From NCBI GenBank assembly GCA_019359095.1, contig JAHHHZ010000011.1:310001-374000 (forward strand): 64,000 nucleotides of DNA, given 5' to 3'. Source of the DNA: Pleurocapsa minor HA4230-MV1. Lineage in GTDB: Bacteria > Cyanobacteriota > Cyanobacteriia > Cyanobacteriales > Xenococcaceae. The notes below the pieces were generated by a model that was not told the origin of the DNA, did no database searches, and worked only from the letters and a program-made list of their open reading frames with translations. This document shows positions 1 through 58,434 of the stretch, in pieces; position 1 is the stretch's first letter, and each line of letters begins with the position of its first letter. Made by a program: the position numbers and the translations under genes.

Positions 1-309
1 AATGCTTTCCCCTTCACGATCTTCATCCGTCGCCAGAATTAGCTCGTCTGCGTTTTTCAGGGCGGTCTTTAATTCTTTAACTACCTTCTTTTTCTTATCA
101 GGCACAACGTAGATCGGTTGGAACTCATCTTCGATGTTGATGCCTAAAGTAGCCCACTTCTTATCTTTAAAGGCAGGAGGAATCTCTTTGGCTGAGGGGG
201 GCAAATCTCGGACATGACCCATTGATGCCTCAACCTGATAGCCAGAGGGCAGATAATTACGAATAGTACGCGCTTTGGTAGGAGACTCGACAATAACTAA
301 TGTTGACAT
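1..309 (-). CDS. topA: DNA topoisomerase I, N-terminal part (cut by window edge)
   Basis: The minus strand reads from an ATG at 309 and stays open to base 1, giving the first 103 residues. It begins [16 protein letters not shown], continues with SMGHVRDLP, and ends in [10 protein letters not shown]. These are the TOPRIM-domain motifs of bacterial type IA topoisomerase: the active-site glutamate lies in VESPTKA and the metal-binding acidic triad is in the DEDREGE stretch. The enzyme relaxes negatively supercoiled DNA through a transient 5'-phosphotyrosine. The rest of the gene, including the catalytic tyrosine, lies outside the window. It is divergent from ndhB, with about 325 bp between the two starts. 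Identification is secure; only the length is unknown. Confidence 0.95.
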
Positions 310-635
310 ATGAGATGGGATTAACGCAGTAAGATAGCTGGGATGAATTTTCTCTAGAGATTTTTTTGATCTATTTTTCTAATCTATAGTTATATTCCCT
401 TAAACGACAAATATCTTTGTTGATTGATTGCAGAGCAGAATTGGTGAATCAATTAGCCTACTCAGCTTTAGCCTGGTTTTTACCATAACCTAAATTAACC
501 TCTAGTTAATCTTCCGTTTGTTAAATAGCCAAAACATAATAAGCTGAAACAGGATCGGGATAGAGAGTTACAATCCTTTGTATAGCTCCTACAGCAATTT
601 TTCAACTGTATTTATATCTGACTGTATCTAAATCT
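310..635. other. topA-ndhB divergent intergenic region
   Basis: AT-rich spacer between two divergent starts that must hold both promoters. I see no small gene. An inverted repeat, ATTAAC-5-GTTAAT, lies at 494-510 and could be an operator or chance. No clear -35/-10 pair stands out. Confidence 0.5.
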
Positions 636-2210
636 ATGGATTTTTCTAGCACTGTAGCCTCTCAGCTTCATGCAGCGACAATTGTACCCGAAGGTATTGT
701 GACCGTGACGCTCATAGCTGTTCTCATTGGCGATTTAATCTTTGGGCGTAGCTCCTCCCGCTGGTTGCCCTATCTAGCTATCTTCGGATTATTCAATACC
801 CTTGTAGCTCTCTTTTTTCAATGGAGTAATCCCAATGCGATCGCTTTTTTGGGATCGTTTAATGGAGATAATCTTAGCATTGTCTTTCGGGGCATAGTTG
901 CCCTCTCGGCACTGGTTACAATTCCCATGTCTATTCGCTATATTCAGCAATCGGGAACATCTTTGGCAGAATTTATTGCCATTATGCTCACCGCTACTCT
1001 AGGAGGTATGTTCCTCTGTGGAGCGAATGAGTTAACGATGGTGTTTATCTCTCTAGAAATGTTGAGTATTTCTTCCTACTTGATGACGGGCTACATGAAG
1101 CGCGATCCCCGTTCTAATGAAGCTGCCCTCAAGTACCTACTAATTGGAGCTTCTAGCTCGGCAATCTTCCTGTATGGCATGTCTTTACTTTATGGTTTGT
1201 CGGGAGGAGAAACAAATCTTAACAGTATCTCCGCTAAGGTCACGGCTGTTAATGGTGTAGAGTCTCTTGGTTTAGCTATCTCTTTGGTATTTATCATTGC
1301 GGGTATTGCCTTTAAGATCTCGGCTGTTCCTTTCCACCAGTGGACACCAGATGTTTACGAAGGTTCTCCCACTCCTGTAGTTGCTTTCCTCTCTGTTGGC
1401 TCAAAAGCTGCGGGTTTTGCCCTGGCAATCCGTCTCTTGACCACTGCCTTTGGTTCACTTACCGAACAGTGGCACTTTATTTTTACCGCCCTAGCAATTC
1501 TCAGTATGGTATTGGGTAACGTAGTAGCCCTCGCCCAAACCAGTATTAAGCGGATGTTGGCTTATTCTTCCATCGCCCAAGCTGGGTTTGTGATGATTGG
1601 TTTAATTGCAGGGACAGATAATGGCTATTCCAGCATGATCTTCTATCTGTTTATTTACTTATTTATGAACTTAGGAGCGTTTAGCTGTATTATTCTCTTC
1701 TCTCTACGTACGGGAACAGATCAAATTAGTGAATACGCGGGCTTATATCAAAAAGATCCCTTGCTTACCCTGTGTTTAAGTATTTGTTTGCTTTCTCTCG
1801 GTGGTATTCCTCCCATGGCTGGCTTCTTCGGCAAAATTTACCTATTTTGGGCAGGTTGGCAAGCTGGACTATATGGACTCGTATTACTTGGCTTAATCAC
1901 CAGTGTCATCTCAATTTACTACTACATTCGAGTGGTCAAAATGATGGTAGTCAAAGAACCCCAAGAAATGTCTGAATCCGTCAAAAACTACCCCAAAATC
2001 AACTGGAAGCTTCCAGGAATGCGTCCTCTACAGGTAGGAATTGTCGCTTCAGCAATTATTACTTCTCTGGCTGGAATTTTATCCAATCCCCTGTTTACTT
2101 TAAGTGCTAGTTCAGTTGCCAGTACGCCGATTCTACACTCGACTGTCATCACTCAGGAAATACCCAAAACTACAATTCAAGTTTCCACAATCGACGATTT
2201 AATCAATTAA
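636..2210 (+). CDS. ndhB: NAD(P)H-quinone oxidoreductase subunit 2 (NdhB)
   Basis: A 524-residue, strongly hydrophobic protein with about 14 predicted membrane segments. It belongs to the proton-pumping, antiporter-like subunit family of complex I/NDH-1 in thylakoids. Family motifs are visible in order: the [19 protein letters not shown] helix, [34 protein letters not shown] and [14 protein letters not shown]. The conserved glutamate and lysines of the proton channel are present. NdhB is a core membrane subunit of all cyanobacterial NDH-1 forms, which serve respiration, cyclic electron flow and CO2 uptake. It stands alone, followed by a terminator at 2241-2264, so it is probably monocistronic. 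Length is normal for the family, and the start is a plain ATG. Confidence 0.97.
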
Positions 2211-2240
2211 TAAATTAAGCTAAAAGATTTAATCTAATGA

Positions 2241-2264
2241 GGCTCGCTGCGGTGAGCTTTTTTT
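2241..2264 (+). terminator. Rho-independent terminator after ndhB
   Basis: Stem GCTCGC (2242-2247), loop TGCG, GTGAGC (2252-2257, one G-U pair), followed by seven T residues. It lies about 30 bp beyond the ndhB stop codon and points the right way. Confidence 0.8.
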
Positions 2265-2295
2265 GTCGGCAAGTAGCATGATCAGTAATCAGTAA

Positions 2296-3534
2296 TCACT
2301 GTGCTAATTTTTTCAAAGCAGAAAGAGCATGAAGTTGGACTTTGCGATCGCTATCTGTGGCAAGTTGTTCTAAGACTGGGATAGCAGAGCGATCGCCTAA
2401 TTCACCCAAAGAAGTGGCTAAGGCTTGTCTAATGGAGGCTGACAATGATTGTTGCCGTTGCCAAAAAGCGATTAATACCTGAGCTGACTGATGCTTTAGT
2501 TCTAACGTACCATTTCGCCCCAAAATGATAATAATCTCCTGGATAATTAGTTCACTGGAGTTGGTTAGAGCCTGTTCTAGATAAGTGATTCCTGAACTAA
2601 GTTTGCTCCAGCCTAAAGCTTTGACTAAATCTAATTTGAGGGCTACAGGCGTAGTATCGACTTGCAATACTTCAAACAGAGCAGTAGTAGCGTTTGGTTG
2701 CTGCATTCTGCCTAAAGAAATTGCTGCTTGGCTACAAACTTCGAGGTTTAAATCGTAGAGTAGAGGTTGTAGGTGTTTAACCAAGTCCATTGATTGACAG
2801 AGATCGGGACGAAAACCTAGAGCGATCGCCGCTTCTTTTCTAACTGTACTGGCTCGATCTTGCAAGGCGGTAATCAATACAGGCGGGATACGGCGATCGT
2901 GGAAGCTACCTAAAGCATTAATAGCAATGGCGCGTAATTCTGCCTTCTCGTGAGTGGTGATGGTTAACAGTGGCGAAATAGTCGAGGCAGAACGAATGTA
3001 AGATAAAGCATTAGTTGCCAAAAAACAATATTTTGGCTCTGATAATAAATCTACTAAAGCATCAATAGCGCGATCGCCAATTTGAATTAAAGTTTTGCCA
3101 GCGATAGTAATTAATTCATTGTCGTTAGATTGCTGTAGTAGCTGCACTAAAGTTAAGACAACTGACTGTTCGGGAAAATTGCCGAGAATTTGACAGATAA
3201 ACCAACGTACTTCTGCTTCTACTGTTTCATCTAAAGCTAAAGTATTGAGGGGTGTAATTATTTTGTGACCCAAGAGGGGAAAAAGTTTAGTAATTGACCA
3301 TTTATGCTGAAAATCGGCTTTAATTAACATTTCTAAGGCAATATTAAAGACCGTCTGCCAATCCTCTGGGTTTAAAACTAACTGCTTATGATTGGCAGAT
3401 TTACTTTGTGGTAGTTGTTGAAGCTGATTGCTTACCTCTAACCAATTTTGTGTTTGTGCTGCCTTGAGTGCCTGTTCCAATATTACTTTAACCAAAGATT
3501 GATTCGCTGCTGTTTCTGGTTTAATATAAGTCAC
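2296..3534 (-). CDS. HEAT-repeat protein
   Basis: A 412-residue protein built of repeated helical pairs from about residue 90 to the end. Typical repeat phrases are AELRAIAINALGSF, STVRKEAAIALGF, LEVCSQAAISLGRM, ASIRQALATSLGEL and RKVQLHALSALKKL. These are HEAT/PBS-lyase-type repeats, which form a curved solenoid for protein binding. In cyanobacteria the fold is found in phycobilin lyases (CpcE/F type) and in many scaffolds of unknown role. No bilin lyase partner or phycobilisome gene is nearby, so no substrate can be assigned. There is no signal peptide, so it is probably cytosolic. It is divergent from proB and convergent with ndhB, so it stands alone. Confidence 0.85.
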   Translation of the reverse strand: MTYIKPETAANQSLVKVILEQALKAAQTQNWLEVSNQLQQLPQSKSANHKQLVLNPEDWQTVFNIALEMLIKADFQHKWSITKLFPLLGHKIITPLNTLALDETVEAEVRWFICQILGNFPEQSVVLTLVQLLQQSNDNELITIAGKTLIQIGDRAIDALVDLLSEPKYCFLATNALSYIRSASTISPLLTITTHEKAELRAIAINALGSFHDRRIPPVLITALQDRASTVRKEAAIALGFRPDLCQSMDLVKHLQPLLYDLNLEVCSQAAISLGRMQQPNATTALFEVLQVDTTPVALKLDLVKALGWSKLSSGITYLEQALTNSSELIIQEIIIILGRNGTLELKHQSAQVLIAFWQRQQSLSASIRQALATSLGELGDRSAIPVLEQLATDSDRKVQLHALSALKKLAQ

Positions 3535-48310: not shown

Positions 48311-48844
48311 ATGCCCAATTATCGAAGAGTATATGTTCCTGGTGGCACTTATTTTTTGACCTTGGTAACTTATTGTCGTCGTCCTTTATTCAAAGAACCA
48401 AGTAATATCAATATTTTACGTTCGGCGATCGCCAAAGTTAAAGCGCAAAAACCATTTGAGATTATGGCTGCGGTCATTCTAAGCGATCATCTTCATTTCA
48501 TCTGGCGCTTACCATCTGATGATTCAGATTATTCTCAAAGGATATCAAGATTAAAAGTCTTGTTTACTAGAGCTTTTAAGGCAAATCAAAGCTCATCTTG
48601 GGAAATTTCGGCTTCACGGCATAAGCATAGAGAAAGTGATGTTTGGCAACGACGTTTTTGGGAACATTTAATTAAAGATGAAAGAGATTTACAACAGCAT
48701 CTTGATTATATTCATTACAATCCTGTCAAACATGGGCTGGTTTCTTGCCCCCATCTGTGGGAGTATTCAAGCTTTTCTAAATGGGTAGGTAAAGACAGAT
48801 ATACCCAAGACTGGTGTTGTGTTTGCAAAAATATAGATTCGTAG
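48311..48844 (+). CDS. REP-associated tyrosine transposase (RAYT)
   Basis: A 177-residue IS200/IS605-type Y1 single-strand nuclease of the RAYT class. The opening MPNYRRVYVPGGTYFLTLVT is typical. The metal-binding histidine pair is in LSDHLHFIWRLP, and the catalytic tyrosine probably lies in HLDYIHYNPVKHGLV. RAYTs are single-copy, domesticated transposases that mobilise or process REP palindromes. The stop codon is inside the adjoining REP pair (48841-48986). That close link suggests an intact REPtron-like unit. Confidence 0.92.
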   Translation: MPNYRRVYVPGGTYFLTLVTYCRRPLFKEPSNINILRSAIAKVKAQKPFEIMAAVILSDHLHFIWRLPSDDSDYSQRISRLKVLFTRAFKANQSSSWEISASRHKHRESDVWQRRFWEHLIKDERDLQQHLDYIHYNPVKHGLVSCPHLWEYSSFSKWVGKDRYTQDWCCVCKNIDS

Positions 48845-49961: not shown

Positions 49962-52900
49962 ATGAATTCTTTATCCCAAGAGTTAGAAGAACTTTATAAT
50001 CAAGCACCTTGCGGATATCATTCTTTGGACTCAGAGGGAAAATTTATTCGTATTAACGATACCGAACTCAAAATGTTGGGCTATAGCCGAGAAGAAGTTT
50101 TGGGTCGCAAGTTCTGTGATCTAATTACTTCAGAAAGCTTGTTAATTTTTCAACAGAATTTTCCGATTTTCAAGCAGCAAGGCTGGATTAACGACCTTGA
50201 ATTACAGTTGATTCGTCAAGATGGCAGCCTTTTACCTGTATCCTTGAGTGCCACAGCTATTGAAGACGAAGCAGGGAACTTCGTGATGAGTCGCTCAGTA
50301 GTGATTGATATTAGCGAACGGCAGACCGCGCTTCGCGATCGCCAACAAGCAGAAACGGAAAGACAGGCATTAGAGGTAAATCTCAGAGCTAGCCAAGAAC
50401 GTTATCGCCTAATAGCAGAAGAGATTTCGCAGCGAGCAGCCAAATTAGATGCGTTTCGCGTCTCTCTCTCCAATGCGCTACGTCCACTGACTGATGCTGA
50501 TGAGATTCAAGCGATCGCTGCTCGTGTCTTGGGCGAATACTTGGGAGCAAGCCGTGTTATTTATATTGAAGTATTATCGGGTGACGAGGAGGTCATCGTT
50601 CATAAAAATTACACGAATGGTGTTGCCCAATTAAGCGGACGATACCGTTTGGAAGAATACCGACGCAACTTGAGCGACAATCACAAGACAGGGCAAACCC
50701 AGATTGTGACTGACATTGCCAACGATCCTAAGTATACAGACGCTGAGAAGGCAAGATACAGCACGATCGATATTGCTGCACATATTGATGTACCCCTGAT
50801 CAAAAACGATCGATTTGTCGCGTTGCTGGCGGTTCATCAATCCACACCGCGTCAGTGGACAGAAACCGAGGTCAAACTGGTTGAAGAAACCGCAGAGCAA
50901 ACTTGGGCAGGTGTCGAGCGCGCCCGTGCCGAAGCAGCTTTGCGGGAATCGGAAGAAAAATATCGCACCCTGTTCAATTCAATTGACGAAGGCTTTTGCA
51001 TTATTGAAATGATCTTTGATAAGAACGAAAAGCCTGTTGATTATCGCTTTTTAGAGATTAATCCAATTTTTGAGCAACAGACAGGACTCGCAAACGCCCA
51101 GGGAAAAACAGCGCGTCAACTGATTCCCGACCTCGAAGAGCAATGGTTTGAAATCTATGGCAAAATCGCGCTGACGGGTCAATCCATTCGTTTTGAAAAT
51201 CGTTCCGAAGTGATGCACCGCTGGTTTGATGCGTTTGCGTTCCGTTTTGGTAAGCCAGAACACCGACAAGTTGCCATCCTTTTCCAGGACATTAGCGATC
51301 GCAAGCAGGCAGAAACCTCTTTGCAAGAGGCTCAGGAAAGTTTAGCGATCGCCATTGAAGCTGCGCAAATGGGAACCTGGCATTTGGATCTAACCCGAGA
51401 TGTTTCATCTAAGCGATCGCTGCGTCACGATCAGATTTTCGGTTATCAGACACCCCAACTGGAATGGGGAGAGTCAATTGCTAGGCAGCATATTGTGGAA
51501 GCAGACAGGGAAATTTTCGATGCAGCCTTTGCTTACGCCAGAGAAACGGGCAAACTCGATTTTGAGGTGCGTGTTCAATGGCCAGATGGTAGTATTCACT
51601 GGATGGCAGCCCGTGGACATTTTTACTTTGATGAGAATGGAAATCCTGTCAGGGGCGGAGGAGTGAACTTTGATATTAGCGATCGCAAGCAAGCAGAACT
51701 AGCACGGGAGAGATTTCTAACTGTTGCTTCGGATTTACAAATAATCATGGGGAACAACGGATATTTTCATTGGGTCAGCCCAAGTTTTGAACAAGCCCTC
51801 GGCTGGACAACTGAGGAAATGACATCCCGCCCCTGGATTGAATTTATTCATCCTGACGACATCAGCCCTTCTGTCGCTGAAAGTGATAGTGTATTTGCTG
51901 GCAAGGAAACCAATTACTTTGAAAACCGTTATCGACATCGAGATGGTTCCTATCGCTGGTTGTTATGGACAGCACAGCCCTACCCAGAAGAACAAGTGAT
52001 TTATGGGGCTGCTATTGATATTACCGAGCGCAAACAAGCAGAATTAGCTCTTCAGCAACAAATAGCACGGGAACATTTACTGGCTAAAATAACCCAAGCC
52101 ATTCACCAAACTCTTGATGTCGAGCAAATTTTACAAAGTGCGGTAGATTTGGTGAGGCAATTCCTGCAAACAGAGCGAGTGATTATCTTTCGTTTCCAAC
52201 CAGATTGGTCAGGGAAAGTAGTCGCCGAATCAGTGGTGATGGAATCAATTTCGATTTTAGAATCTGAGATTATCGACCCTTGTTTTGGTGAACAATACGT
52301 CGAACCCTATCGCCAGGGACGAGTAGCAGCGATCGCCGATTTTCAGGCATCTGATGTCGAGTTATGCTATCAAGAATTAATGGCTCAATTTCAAGTCAGA
52401 GCTAATTTGGTAGTGCCGATCTTACAAAGGGAACATTTGTGGGGCTTACTAATTGCCCATCATTGCTCGGCACCAAGACCCTGGCAAATAGAAGAAGTCG
52501 AACTACTGCAACAACTAGCAACTCAGTTGGGTATTGCCATTCAACAAGCAGAATTACATCAACAAAATGTCCGACAAGCAGCCTTAATTGATATTGCTAG
52601 CGATGCAATTTTCGTCTGCGATTTGTCGAATCGAATTTTATTCTGGAGTCAAGGGGCGGAAAGGATGTATGGCTGGCGGGCAGTAGAAGTACAAGAAAAC
52701 ATAGCCCACGAACTTTTTCAACAAGAATCTTTATCTCAACTTACAGAAGCTCAAAGCATCGTTATTGAGCAAAATAATTGGTATGGGGAATTAAAACAAC
52801 TGACCAAAGATGGTCGAGAAATCATAGTCGAAAGTCGCTGGACATTAATTACCGATCGACAGGGTAATCCTCAATCAATTTTGGTGGTCAATACCGATAT

Positions 52901-54089
52901 TACCGAAAAAAAACAACTAGCCAAGCAACTGTTACACTCGCAACGTTTAGAAAGTATTGGCACTCTGGCAGGAGGGATTGCTCACGACCTCAATAATATT
53001 TTGACTCCCATTTTGGGCTTTACGCAACTTTTGCCCTTAAGGATTGCCAATTTAGATGATTCTAGTTTACAAATGCTGCAACTGATCCGCAACAATGCCC
53101 TGCGGGGTTCTAAGATCGTCGAGCAGGTGTTACTATTTTCGCGGGACATCGAAACGGAATGGGAATTGCTCAACCTAGCAGAAGTGTTAGAGGAAGTTCT
53201 CAAGTTGATTCAAGAAACCTTTCCCAAATCAATTACGATTGAAAATTCTGTTGCACAAGACTTGTGGTCACTTGATGGTGACTCCACCCAACTGCATCAG
53301 GTAATGATGAACCTCTGTGTTAATGCCCGTGATGCTATGCCCGATGGCGGAAAGTTACTCATTTCTGCTGAAAATCTACGTTTAGATGAGCAATATTTTT
53401 GCACCAATTCACATCTAAAAGTGGGTAATTACATTTTAATTACCGTCACCGATACGGGAATGGGTATTCCGCCAGAGATCGTCGATCGCATTTTCGATCC
53501 TTTTTTTACTACCAAAAAACCAGGTCAGGGAACGGGATTGGGATTATCTACGGTAATCGGTATTGTCAAAAAACATGGAGGTACAATCAACCTAGAAAGC
53601 GAGCGCCAAAATGGTACTCAATTTCAGATTTATTTACCTGCCTCAGCAACAATAACCGTCAATGAAGCAATAATTGGTGAAACTATCCCCTCTGGACAGC
53701 AAGAATTAATTTTGGTGGTGGATGATGAAGCGATAATTCGAGAAGTGACGAAAGCTACTTTAGAAATCTACAACTACCGAGTGATTACTGCTAATGATGG
53801 TATTGAAGCGATCGCCATTTATGCTCAACAACCCCAAGCGATCGCCGTGGTGCTGATGGATTTAGTTATGCCAGAAATGGATGGTCTAACTGCTATGCGT
53901 GCCTTAAAAAAAATTAATCCCCATGTCAAGCTGATTGTCACTAGTGGATTAGCCACCAAGGAAAATGTTACTACCGCTGAATCAATTGGTATCCAATCCT
54001 TTCTGGTTAAACCCTACACAACAGAAAAGTTATTGTTTAATTTAAATAAAACCATCCTAGCTCAATCGGGCTTGTCGAAAAATCAATAA
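49962..54089 (+). CDS. Hybrid sensor histidine kinase with PAS, GAF and a cyanobacteriochrome-like GAF domain
   Basis: A 1375-residue soluble multi-sensor kinase. Order: PAS (about 6-120), GAF (155-325), PAS (328-450), PAS (452-578), PAS (583-695), GAF (700-868), PAS (873-985), HisKA with H1008 in GGIAHDLNN, ATPase domain (N-box NLCVNARDAMPDGG, DTGMGIPPE, GQGTGLGLSTV), and a C-terminal receiver with D1300 in VVLMDLVMPEMDG. The second GAF has IIDPCFGEQYVEPYRQGR and ELCYQELMAQFQVRANLVVP, i.e. a DXCF cysteine (C774) and the canonical bilin cysteine (C802), here followed by Tyr instead of His. This matches DXCF-type cyanobacteriochromes. LtrA follows after 51 bp. Confidence 0.93.
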   Translation: MNSLSQELEELYNQAPCGYHSLDSEGKFIRINDTELKMLGYSREEVLGRKFCDLITSESLLIFQQNFPIFKQQGWINDLELQLIRQDGSLLPVSLSATAIEDEAGNFVMSRSVVIDISERQTALRDRQQAETERQALEVNLRASQERYRLIAEEISQRAAKLDAFRVSLSNALRPLTDADEIQAIAARVLGEYLGASRVIYIEVLSGDEEVIVHKNYTNGVAQLSGRYRLEEYRRNLSDNHKTGQTQIVTDIANDPKYTDAEKARYSTIDIAAHIDVPLIKNDRFVALLAVHQSTPRQWTETEVKLVEETAEQTWAGVERARAEAALRESEEKYRTLFNSIDEGFCIIEMIFDKNEKPVDYRFLEINPIFEQQTGLANAQGKTARQLIPDLEEQWFEIYGKIALTGQSIRFENRSEVMHRWFDAFAFRFGKPEHRQVAILFQDISDRKQAETSLQEAQESLAIAIEAAQMGTWHLDLTRDVSSKRSLRHDQIFGYQTPQLEWGESIARQHIVEADREIFDAAFAYARETGKLDFEVRVQWPDGSIHWMAARGHFYFDENGNPVRGGGVNFDISDRKQAELARERFLTVASDLQIIMGNNGYFHWVSPSFEQALGWTTEEMTSRPWIEFIHPDDISPSVAESDSVFAGKETNYFENRYRHRDGSYRWLLWTAQPYPEEQVIYGAAIDITERKQAELALQQQIAREHLLAKITQAIHQTLDVEQILQSAVDLVRQFLQTERVIIFRFQPDWSGKVVAESVVMESISILESEIIDPCFGEQYVEPYRQGRVAAIADFQASDVELCYQELMAQFQVRANLVVPILQREHLWGLLIAHHCSAPRPWQIEEVELLQQLATQLGIAIQQAELHQQNVRQAALIDIASDAIFVCDLSNRILFWSQGAERMYGWRAVEVQENIAHELFQQESLSQLTEAQSIVIEQNNWYGELKQLTKDGREIIVESRWTLITDRQGNPQSILVVNTDITEKKQLAKQLLHSQRLESIGTLAGGIAHDLNNILTPILGFTQLLPLRIANLDDSSLQMLQLIRNNALRGSKIVEQVLLFSRDIETEWELLNLAEVLEEVLKLIQETFPKSITIENSVAQDLWSLDGDSTQLHQVMMNLCVNARDAMPDGGKLLISAENLRLDEQYFCTNSHLKVGNYILITVTDTGMGIPPEIVDRIFDPFFTTKKPGQGTGLGLSTVIGIVKKHGGTINLESERQNGTQFQIYLPASATITVNEAIIGETIPSGQQELILVVDDEAIIREVTKATLEIYNYRVITANDGIEAIAIYAQQPQAIAVVLMDLVMPEMDGLTAMRALKKINPHVKLIVTSGLATKENVTTAESIGIQSFLVKPYTTEKLLFNLNKTILAQSGLSKNQ

Positions 54090-54140: not shown

Positions 54141-55304
54141 ATGACGAGAGCGATATTTCAACCCCCAAAATTACGCCTAGAAGAATGTGAAGATGAAGAA
54201 CGCAAGGTAACTTGGCTAGAGTTGTTTTTCGATTTGATTTTTGTAGTGGCGATCGCTCAACTAGCCCATAATTTTCATGCAGATTTTAGCTTACTGGGTT
54301 TAGCCAAACTAGGCGTTTTATTTGTCCCCGTGTGGTGGTGCTGGGTTGGCGAAGTCTTCTATGACACACGTTTCGATAATGATGGTTTAGTAGATCGCCT
54401 CATTACTCTGATGCAAATGGCGATCGCAGCGAGTCTGGCAGCTAATATTCATCATGGTTTAAGTAGCTCATCCGTCGGATTTGCCCTCAGCTACATCGCC
54501 TTTCGTGGCGTATTAATCTGTCAATATCTCCATGCAGGTTATCATATACCCCCAGCAAGATCCCTCACCAACTGGTATGCTGTTGGCTTTACTATCAGTC
54601 TTTTATTCTGGTTGGCTTCGTTGTTTGTGCCTCTACCCTGGCGTTTTGGGCTGTGGGGGTTGGGGTTAATTATTGATTTTGCCATTCCTCTAACTGCAGG
54701 AGAAAAAGTAGCTAAAGTTCCGCCTAATCTGACTCATACCACCGAAAGAATTGGGTTATTTACGATTATTGTTTTAGGCGAATCGATTGTTTCTGTAGTC
54801 GGTGGAGTATCTGAACTTGCTTGGACTCCTACTTCAATTGCGATCGCCCTATTAGGCTTATCCATTGCTTTTAGTTTCTGGTGGATGTATTTTGATACGG
54901 TGGATGAATCTCCTCTTCACGCCATGAAAAAAGGCAACATGACAATTGCCCTCACTTGGCTATATTCTCACCTACCATTGGCTGTCGGTTTAACTGCTAC
55001 TGGAGTAGGAGTCGAAAAGATGATTAGTGGTTTAGACAATGATGCTGCCAGAGGAGAAAAAGTTTTATTTTGTCTAGCAGTTAGTCTGTGTCTGCTGATT
55101 CTCTCCAGCCTCCATTGGACAAGCTGTGAGTTAGGTCAAACTAAATGTAAAAAAATCCTGACCTACTATCGTCTTGGTGCTGCTGCTTTTGTCTTAGCTT
55201 TGGCGATCGCCTGTAATGTTTTATCTTCCTTAGTAGTTATTACTTTGGTGGCATTTGTCTGCGCGATTCAAATCGTTTTAGATATTTTCAACACCTGCCC
55301 TTGA
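54141..55304 (+). CDS. ltrA: Low temperature requirement protein A (LtrA) family
   Basis: A 387-residue membrane protein with about ten to twelve helices. The family opening is RKVTWLELFFDLIFVVAIAQLAH, later FTIIVLGESIVSVVGGVSEL and FWWMYFDTVDESP. LtrA was named from Listeria, where loss impairs growth at low temperature; biochemical function is unknown. It follows the hybrid kinase after 51 bp and may be transcribed with it. A MITE-like repeat begins 5 bp beyond the stop codon. Confidence 0.9.
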   Translation: MTRAIFQPPKLRLEECEDEERKVTWLELFFDLIFVVAIAQLAHNFHADFSLLGLAKLGVLFVPVWWCWVGEVFYDTRFDNDGLVDRLITLMQMAIAASLAANIHHGLSSSSVGFALSYIAFRGVLICQYLHAGYHIPPARSLTNWYAVGFTISLLFWLASLFVPLPWRFGLWGLGLIIDFAIPLTAGEKVAKVPPNLTHTTERIGLFTIIVLGESIVSVVGGVSELAWTPTSIAIALLGLSIAFSFWWMYFDTVDESPLHAMKKGNMTIALTWLYSHLPLAVGLTATGVGVEKMISGLDNDAARGEKVLFCLAVSLCLLILSSLHWTSCELGQTKCKKILTYYRLGAAAFVLALAIACNVLSSLVVITLVAFVCAIQIVLDIFNTCP

Positions 55305-56964: not shown

Positions 56965-58434
56965 ATGGACAGTAGATTAAAATATTTGACTATTGAAGAC
57001 TATAGCGTTCTACTAGAGCAAGCCCAGGTAGCCACCTATAAACAGCATGAAGTAATTCTCAAAGAAGGTCGTCCATCCCAGGCGATCTATTTAGTACGTA
57101 AAGGTACGGTGAGGATTGAAAGAGCGGCTACGGGTAGAGATGTGGCGATCGCTTTTCTCGAACCAGGAGAGGTTTTTGGCGAAATTTCTTTTCTTGAGGG
57201 TGTGCCAACTACTAGCGGTGTAATTGCTCAAGAAGATGTGGAAGTTTGCGTGATTAACCAAGAGCAACTTACTGTCTTACTGTCTACTAAACCTGGTTTA
57301 TCGGATCGTTTTTATCAATCTTTGGCACATAATTTGTCTGGTCGTCTTCATCAAACTTCTTCTTTGGTGTCTCACTTAATGCGACGGGTACGTATGGCAC
57401 CAGAATATCATGGTCATCGTACGGGACAGGCTGGACAAAATGAAATTCCTCCTGAATTAGTTGGTGAAACTGAATTATTTAAAAAGAATTTAAGCAGCAT
57501 CGAACAGTTAATTCGTCACCGAGAAATCAGTGAACTGGATGCTCAAATACAGATTGACAAAATCTGTAATATGTTGATTAGCACCCTTAGAGAGCAAATT
57601 ATCGAAGAGCCAAAAATTGCTCAGGCAATTGGGACTTTTATTTTCCGTGAAACCTTTCCGTTTTTCATGCTCAGTAGTTTCCTAGATCGAGCTTTTCGTA
57701 GACCAGGAGGTTATGTTAGCGACTCTTATGTGACTGAATTGCTTTCCCAAAACGAACCAGAAGGGGATGGCTATTTGGGCATTTATCTAGACCGTTGGAT
57801 TCGCTCTCGACCTACCTGTTTAGCTCTTAAAAACCGTGGCGGGATCATTACTGAAACCATAAAACATCTAATTCATAATTGGACGGAATCAGGTCCCGTA
57901 CCCGTCACTAGTATCGCTAGTGGTTCAGCAGCGGAAATTTTGGATCTGTATTTTCGAGCCGAGCCACCTAATGTTCATGTCACCTGCATCGATTTTAATC
58001 ATCAGGAAATATCTTCGGCTGCTAACACCGCTCATAAATGGGGTTGGCAAAATCATCTAACCTTTGTTCAAGATAATTTCTTTTTAATCGCTGAAGGCTA
58101 TAGTCAAATTGATATTCCACCCCAGAAAATGATTTATAGCGTTAGTATGGCAAATTGTTTGCGCGATCGCGAATTTATTCGGATTCTCGACTGGATTTAC
58201 GATCATCTTTTACCTAACGGAATTGTTATTCTTGGTAATCTACATGCTGCTAACCCTGACCGTATTTTACTCGAACATATTCTGGAGTGGCATTCGATCT
58301 ATCGCTCCGCAGATGATTTAGAATCGCTATTTTCTCGTTCTAAATTCCGTTCTCTTCCTCTGTCAATTCAGTCTGATGAATATGGCGTTGAATTATTTGT
58401 AATTTGTAAGAAAGCTTGGGAAATCAATAAATAA
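56965..58434 (+). CDS. Cyclic-nucleotide-binding domain fused to a class I methyltransferase-like domain
   Basis: A 489-residue protein. The first 125 residues form a cNMP-binding domain: KEGRPSQAIYLVRKGTVRIE, then FLEPGEVFGEISFLEGVPTT as the phosphate-binding cassette region. A helical linker follows (about 150-260). The C-terminal half is a Rossmann-type SAM methyltransferase: TSIASGSAAEILDLYF (motif I, about 320), VTCIDFNHQEISSAA, and PQKMIYSVSMANCLRD. There is no helix-turn-helix, so it is not a CRP-type regulator. It may couple cAMP or cGMP level to methylation of an unknown target. The cassette lacks a clear arginine for the phosphate, so ligand binding is uncertain. Confidence 0.82.
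   Translation: MDSRLKYLTIEDYSVLLEQAQVATYKQHEVILKEGRPSQAIYLVRKGTVRIERAATGRDVAIAFLEPGEVFGEISFLEGVPTTSGVIAQEDVEVCVINQEQLTVLLSTKPGLSDRFYQSLAHNLSGRLHQTSSLVSHLMRRVRMAPEYHGHRTGQAGQNEIPPELVGETELFKKNLSSIEQLIRHREISELDAQIQIDKICNMLISTLREQIIEEPKIAQAIGTFIFRETFPFFMLSSFLDRAFRRPGGYVSDSYVTELLSQNEPEGDGYLGIYLDRWIRSRPTCLALKNRGGIITETIKHLIHNWTESGPVPVTSIASGSAAEILDLYFRAEPPNVHVTCIDFNHQEISSAANTAHKWGWQNHLTFVQDNFFLIAEGYSQIDIPPQKMIYSVSMANCLRDREFIRILDWIYDHLLPNGIVILGNLHAANPDRILLEHILEWHSIYRSADDLESLFSRSKFRSLPLSIQSDEYGVELFVICKKAWEINK

Follow-up and report, generated by a model that had tools for sequence, protein, structure and literature searches.

Here, we describe a hybrid histidine kinase of Pleurocapsa minor HA4230-MV1, encoded in a 64,000-nucleotide stretch of contig JAHHHZ010000011.1 (positions 310,001 to 374,000; the whole of it is referred to as the window), and propose with high confidence that its second GAF domain (GAF2) is a DXCF photosensor that would hold phycocyanobilin (PCB) or phycoviolobilin (PVB) on C802, form a dark-state bond between C774 and the bilin C10, and steer the kinase through a blue to teal-to-green cycle. 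This proposal builds on observed features, namely, homologous cysteine columns, relatives, conservation, bilin-synthesis genes, and kinase and receiver motifs. As far as sequence can tell, the family call is correct, and GAF2 joins a well-studied receptor family as a further example. An apparently generic PAS/GAF hybrid kinase can now be regarded as a candidate receptor for blue light in which individual residues can be tested, one more receptor is added to a genome already rich in cyanobacteriochrome GAFs, and a simple, testable question is raised, that of His versus Tyr after the canonical cysteine and the PCB/PVB balance.

Domain architecture of the kinase

The kinase gene (49962..54089; this and all features below on the forward strand) encodes a 1375-residue PAS/GAF hybrid histidine kinase with the order PAS - GAF1 - PAS domains - GAF2 - PAS - HisKA - HATPase - REC, in agreement with the first-pass annotation, which had described a hybrid kinase of this length with a receiver at its end (Pfam REC, residues 1250-1358). 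Several PAS stretches and two GAF stretches were matched by Pfam, the better GAF match spanning residues 719-860. GAF1 (50493..50906; a Pfam match in the genome scan at G000:C11:360493-360906, window offset 310000) yielded no DXCF motif when its translation was inspected by eye, and by its residues, which are not of the bilin-binding type, it is an ordinary GAF. GAF2 (residues 719-860; 52116..52541), a predicted DXCF cyanobacteriochrome domain by Pfam and relatives, contains in translation and alignments the motif D772-P773-C774-F775 (52275..52286), of which C774 (codon 52281-52283) is the predicted second cysteine and partner of bilin C10, and C802 (codon 52365-52367), the predicted canonical bilin-binding cysteine, directly followed by Tyr803 (both residues, 52365..52370).

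Between the photosensor and the kinase lies a PAS domain (residues 874-980; 52581..52901; Pfam PF00989), followed by Pfam matches to the HisKA dimerization/phosphoacceptor domain (residues 1000-1061; 52959..53144) with the predicted phosphoacceptor H1008 (52983-52985), the HATPase_c kinase domain (residues 1106-1227; 53277..53642), and the C-terminal receiver (residues 1250-1358; 53709..54035) with the predicted phosphoacceptor D1300 (53859-53861). By inspection, the motifs start at residues 1007 (AHDLNN), 1121 (NARDAM), 1164 (DTGMGIP), 1190 (GTGLGLS), and 1300 (DLVMPEM), with the second to fourth of these belonging to HATPase_c. The HisKA-HATPase-REC order is shared with CckA-type hybrid kinases, and the best NCBIfam match of the transmitter is NF046020 (CckA), but its score of 369.7 bits is far under the cut-off of 1000 bits, so identification as CckA was rejected.

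The two cysteines and reference receptors

The earlier claim that the second GAF has DPCF with C774, and C802 28 residues further on, was confirmed in the translation, as was its comparison with cysteines 494 and 522 of TePixJ, which have the same spacing. The TePixJ sequence, taken from the PDB alignment, aligns with GAF2 without gaps at 42% identity over 132 aa, with both cysteines paired. Further reference GAFs came from G120, a genome that matches TePixJ at 100%, where the frame of locus L106, read from the first GTG, has cysteines at 494 and 522. Two of these GAFs, L103 (48% identity over 170 aa), which we take from its genome position to be probably Tlr1999, and L104 (46% over 167 aa), also align ungapped with both cysteines paired. 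Read from its first GTG, L104 has C499 and C527, and is identified as Tlr0924 because these equal the numbers published for that protein in PMC4067208 (C499) and PMC4223177 (C499 and C527).

C774 thus pairs, ungapped, with the DXCF cysteine, and C802 with the canonical one, in TePixJ, Tlr0924, and the third Thermosynechococcus GAF (C802 on C522 of TePixJ and C527 of Tlr0924), with Asp-Xaa-Cys-Phe at the second-cysteine position, and the alignment supports the annotation of this hybrid kinase as carrying a dual-cysteine cyanobacteriochrome GAF of the DXCF type. For TePixJ, the bond between Cys494 and C10 is named in PMC6955287.

A larger alignment was compiled from rows fetched by likeness to the query, TePixJ, or the Pfam GAF model, and hence is not a random sample; after HSPs with an extended translation below 130 aa and contained sequences were dropped, 241 HSPs gave 204 distinct sequences. 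Rows were counted as dual-cysteine if they had the two cysteines as well as an acidic residue (Asp or Glu) at 772; this applied to 171, TePixJ being represented twice (PDB chain and L073). The spacing of 28 recurs in 166 of these rows and, together with the homologous columns, argues that the C774/C802 pair is not due to chance.

Among the named receptors, TePixJ (GAF structures 3vv4, 4fof, 4glq, and 6p58) shares DPCF, the canonical cysteine, and the spacing with GAF2 but has His after the canonical cysteine and Leu at helix 4 and, unlike the window kinase, is annotated as a methyl-accepting chemotaxis protein. Tlr0924, a blue/green DXCF receptor of Thermosynechococcus, shares DPCF, C-Tyr, and the spacing of 28, whereas its helix-4 tuning residue is Leu instead of Phe810 and its output, by eye, is GGDEF-like instead of HisKA-HATPase-REC. 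L103 has D-S-C-F and C-Tyr, corresponding to the DXCF/CY of GAF2, and differs in Tyr at helix 4, Met at beta-2, and a GGDEF/EAL-like output (by eye).

Lineage and color-tuning residues

According to PMC11284453, DXCF and red/green (XRG) receptors are told apart by the Trp of WXDXXL. XRG receptors typically do not have the DXCF cysteine; GAF2 has C774, and at the Trp position it has Ile770, as do 137 of the 171 dual-cysteine rows. The presence of C774 also separates GAF2 from the NpR3784 lineage, in which there is no DXCF cysteine. The helix-4 and beta-2 positions were mapped by spacing from the numbering in PMC5240096, not from structure, to Phe810 (52389..52391) and Val753; Phe occupies the former in 103 and Val the latter in 108 of the 171 rows, and the corresponding pairs are Leu/Val in TePixJ and Tlr0924 and Tyr/Met in L103. 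Phe at both positions is named for red/green and teal-DXCF types in PMC5240096; with the positions mapped by spacing, GAF2 has Phe at helix 4 but Val at beta-2. For DXCF receptors of the typical kind, a dark state absorbing in the blue is described, with photoproducts ranging from teal to orange (PMC6628166), and, by analogy with the family, a violet/blue dark state with a teal-to-green photoproduct is plausible for GAF2.

The residue after the canonical cysteine

The first-pass annotation had pointed to Tyr803 as a replacement of the common His. His is indeed the more frequent residue, but Tyr is a regular variant: this position is His in 121, Tyr in 46, Gln in 2, Arg in 1, and Leu in 1 of the 171 dual-cysteine rows, and the 155 strict D-x-C-F rows have His in 111, Tyr in 41, Gln in 2, and Arg in 1, with at least 20 switches between His and Tyr on the tree. 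Within the genome of P. minor itself, Tyr prevails (13 of 21 dual-cysteine rows, the other 8 being His). Given these frequencies and switches, Tyr803 was discarded as an unusual feature, and since Tyr is both common and present in Tlr0924, it is no sign of an unusual protein.

In Tlr0924, the conversion of PCB to PVB reportedly takes days and is incomplete, reaching ~80% PVB and 20% PCB (PMC4067208 and PMC4223177), so that Tyr does not stop isomerization. This slow, incomplete isomerization is a lead, not proof, for an effect of Tyr on the process. Because Tlr0924, which also has Tyr, converts PCB in this manner, GAF2 might conceivably keep a lasting PCB fraction, with one domain reporting blue, green, and orange/red and the choice of Tyr or His acting as an evolutionary dial of the chromophore mix, a scenario we consider speculative and rather unlikely.

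Pigment supply and other GAF domains of the genome

The genome encodes a single heme oxygenase along with four bilin reductases, one classed as PebB, one as PebA, and two as PcyA, each above the NCBIfam cut-off. Sampling of 30 loci from 50 Pfam GAF matches produced 30 distinct GAF rows, 21 of which are dual-cysteine; strict DXCF with the spacing of 28 is present in at least 17 GAFs (11 with Tyr, 6 with His).

Two large ORFs, L009 and L022 (G000:C13, ~295-298 kb and 300-303 kb), contain five GAFs each; both cysteines are present in 9 of these 10, with Tyr after the canonical one in 7 of the 9, and for one L009 GAF, the best match among solved structures is TePixJ. Elsewhere, locus L205 (G000:C36:463400-467600; 173-3470, minus strand) is a same-strand run encoding a 245-aa bilin reductase (the second PcyA-like one), a kinase (692 aa; PAS-GAF-PAS-HisKA-HATPase, its GAF with EEVF and C-Leu), and a single receiver (126 aa), and may represent a photoreceptor accompanied by an enzyme for its own chromophore.

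Proposed mechanism

From these observations, we infer bilin binding, the colors, the extent of isomerization, the direction of kinase control, and the downstream partner as follows. PCB would be attached covalently to C802 through its ring A and isomerized by GAF2, partly or completely, to PVB. C774 would form an additional bond to C10 of the bilin in the dark 15Z state, producing a violet/blue-absorbing form; on exposure to blue light, the bilin would switch to 15E and its link to C774 would be broken, yielding the teal-to-green photoproduct, and any non-isomerized PCB would give an orange/red one. The signal would pass through the linker and PAS to HisKA/HATPase, altering the phosphorylation of H1008, then to D1300 of the C-terminal receiver and presumably to a separate phosphotransfer protein. 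GAF1 and the several PAS domains may be the main input of the kinase.

Relatives and alternative photocycles

A search of PDB sequences with GAF2 returned 95 distinct sequences at E <= 0.001, and among the best 60 of the 95, which were inspected, the top relative is the dual sensor histidine kinase 6oap (E 4e-56), followed by the miRFPnano proteins; the TePixJ entries score from E 5.5e-29 to 1.8e-27. 6oap and miRFP670nano, the best matches in both sequence and fold, carry Tyr where GAF2 has the DXCF cysteine C774, so that the nearest structural templates of the dual-cysteine GAF2 are single-cysteine receptors. miRFP670nano belongs to the NpR3784-type lineage, and we read 6oap as a further member of it. 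An AlphaFold model from a 7-row alignment had a mean pLDDT of 56.8, too poor for the geometry of cysteines or bilin, and therefore the fold-level match alone was used; with this low-confidence model, Foldseek ranks cyanobacteriochrome GAFs first, and Pfam, the PDB sequence search, and the fold match all assign GAF2 to the cyanobacteriochrome family. The 18 stretches from a viral_contigs scan, run to deepen the alignment, contained no relative, and 17 of 72,556 records of a plasmid collection matched, all below 60% identity.

At E <= 1e-15, GAF2 has matches in all 40 genomes searched (its own and 39 relatives), the sole close one outside its own gene being an ortholog in G020, a genome of another genus, with DPCF and CY kept and the GAF 80% identical; the next match is at 56%. 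A scan of named genomes added 6 loci from 26 candidate stretches, of which L061, L062, and L063 (59-62% identity) keep both DPCF and CY; the two cysteines are also present in L064, L065, and L066, there with His after the canonical one. In a quick tree of 208 rows, with columns 774, 802, and 803 left out, the query and the G020 ortholog are united with an SH-aLRT of 99 and then joined by L061-L063 at 94. The smallest branch to unite the query with 6oap and miRFP670nano comprises 38 rows (SH-aLRT 84), and the path from the query is 2.25 to TePixJ versus 1.08 to the single-cysteine 6oap, although deeper support is uneven, with 75 of 205 inner branches below 80.

This proximity of solved single-cysteine receptors is consistent with a different photocycle of the single-cysteine type, in which the bilin of GAF2 would sit on C802 without a stable C774 bond and absorb green to red in the dark state. 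Two published findings point the same way: PVB formation and C10 bonding are separable (PMC11284453), and DXCF introduced by mutation into insert-Cys receptors did not restore an efficient photocycle (PMC5240096). Nevertheless, DPCF is common to a five-row clade (the query, L032, L061, L062, and L063), and Tlr0924, also with CY, bonds via its DXCF cysteine (PMC4067208), which makes such a photocycle very unlikely and favors the dual-cysteine mechanism.

Two members of the query's 16-row branch depart from the usual residues: L121 has DPCF and C-Gln (Gln at 803), and L162, also with Gln at 803, keeps the second cysteine in A-S-C-L and has Ala as the canonical residue. Both are natural variants of interest for altered or lost bilin binding.

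The conserved unit

Across the GAF2-to-receiver part, the G020 ortholog (1363 aa) and the window kinase are 74% identical; the ortholog has a CBS region at its N-terminus and no GAF1. Because this N-terminus differs and LtrA (see below) is absent, the conserved unit is delimited as GAF-PAS-HisKA-HATPase-REC. When the GAF2-to-receiver segment was searched against the 40 genomes, 5 of the 38 matches listed begin within the first five query residues and extend over the full unit, and the other 33 begin at position 138 of the query or beyond, downstream of both cysteines; for at least three of the latter (G015:C119, G016:C1, and G017:C274), a GAF2-like match lies farther upstream in a frame of equal length. 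DXCF GAFs in frame with a similar transmitter were found in G012, G015, G017, and G019, all with D-x-C-F and C-His. These match starts and GAFs indicate that a DXCF GAF with such a transmitter recurs and that the unit is shuffled among sensors.

Such shuffling, with most matches listed beginning past the cysteines, would fit a relic GAF2 that binds no bilin in the cell, the kinase answering to PAS or GAF1. We consider this even less probable than the single-cysteine photocycle: GAF2 is under purifying selection (dN 0.13, dS 1.06, dN/dS ~0.12 against the G020 ortholog, with dS near saturation), and both cysteines are kept in that 80% ortholog and in the 59-62% relatives L061-L063.

The LtrA neighbor and surroundings

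The reported LtrA gene 51 bp downstream of the kinase was located at 54141..55304 (forward strand; Pfam LtrA, E 6.6e-91) and encodes an LtrA-family membrane protein. A scan for promoters and terminators gave nothing above shuffled expectation, with no terminator-like site between the two genes. In G020, the gene after the kinase ortholog looks methyltransferase-like by eye, and no LtrA match was found in that genome; LtrA is present in 10 of 12 other genomes of the same genus. The kinase was searched by tblastn against 22 LtrA loci taken with flanks of at most 1.5 kb, and upstream ORFs were listed for 14 of the 22. Besides the kinase's own locus, kinase parts near LtrA were detected in L186 and L189, distant relatives at ~31% identity, shortly upstream in L186 and with a small ORF between in L189; in the flanks of up to 1.5 kb upstream of LtrA in the same-genus genomes, several of them truncated by contig ends, the sole match was a weak receiver-like one (L175, 30% over 111 aa).

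A single light-controlled operon with LtrA as its output, suggested by the 51-base gap, the shared strand, the lack of a terminator-like site, and the kinases near LtrA in L186 and L189, is highly improbable given the G020 neighborhood and the near absence of kinase matches in the same-genus flanks searched upstream of LtrA. As the kinase-LtrA pairing is not conserved, LtrA was rejected as the output gene on neighborhood grounds; it is probably not part of the kinase system and, on the G020 neighbor, the LtrA distribution, and the upstream flanks, was left out of the mechanism.

Two other genes of the window were noted. A 489-aa protein (56965-58434) has a cyclic-nucleotide-binding domain at residues 24-107, with no Pfam match at 1e-5 in its C-terminal rest, and in the product of 48311-48844 Pfam matched a Y1 transposase domain of the IS200-like type (E 9e-07).
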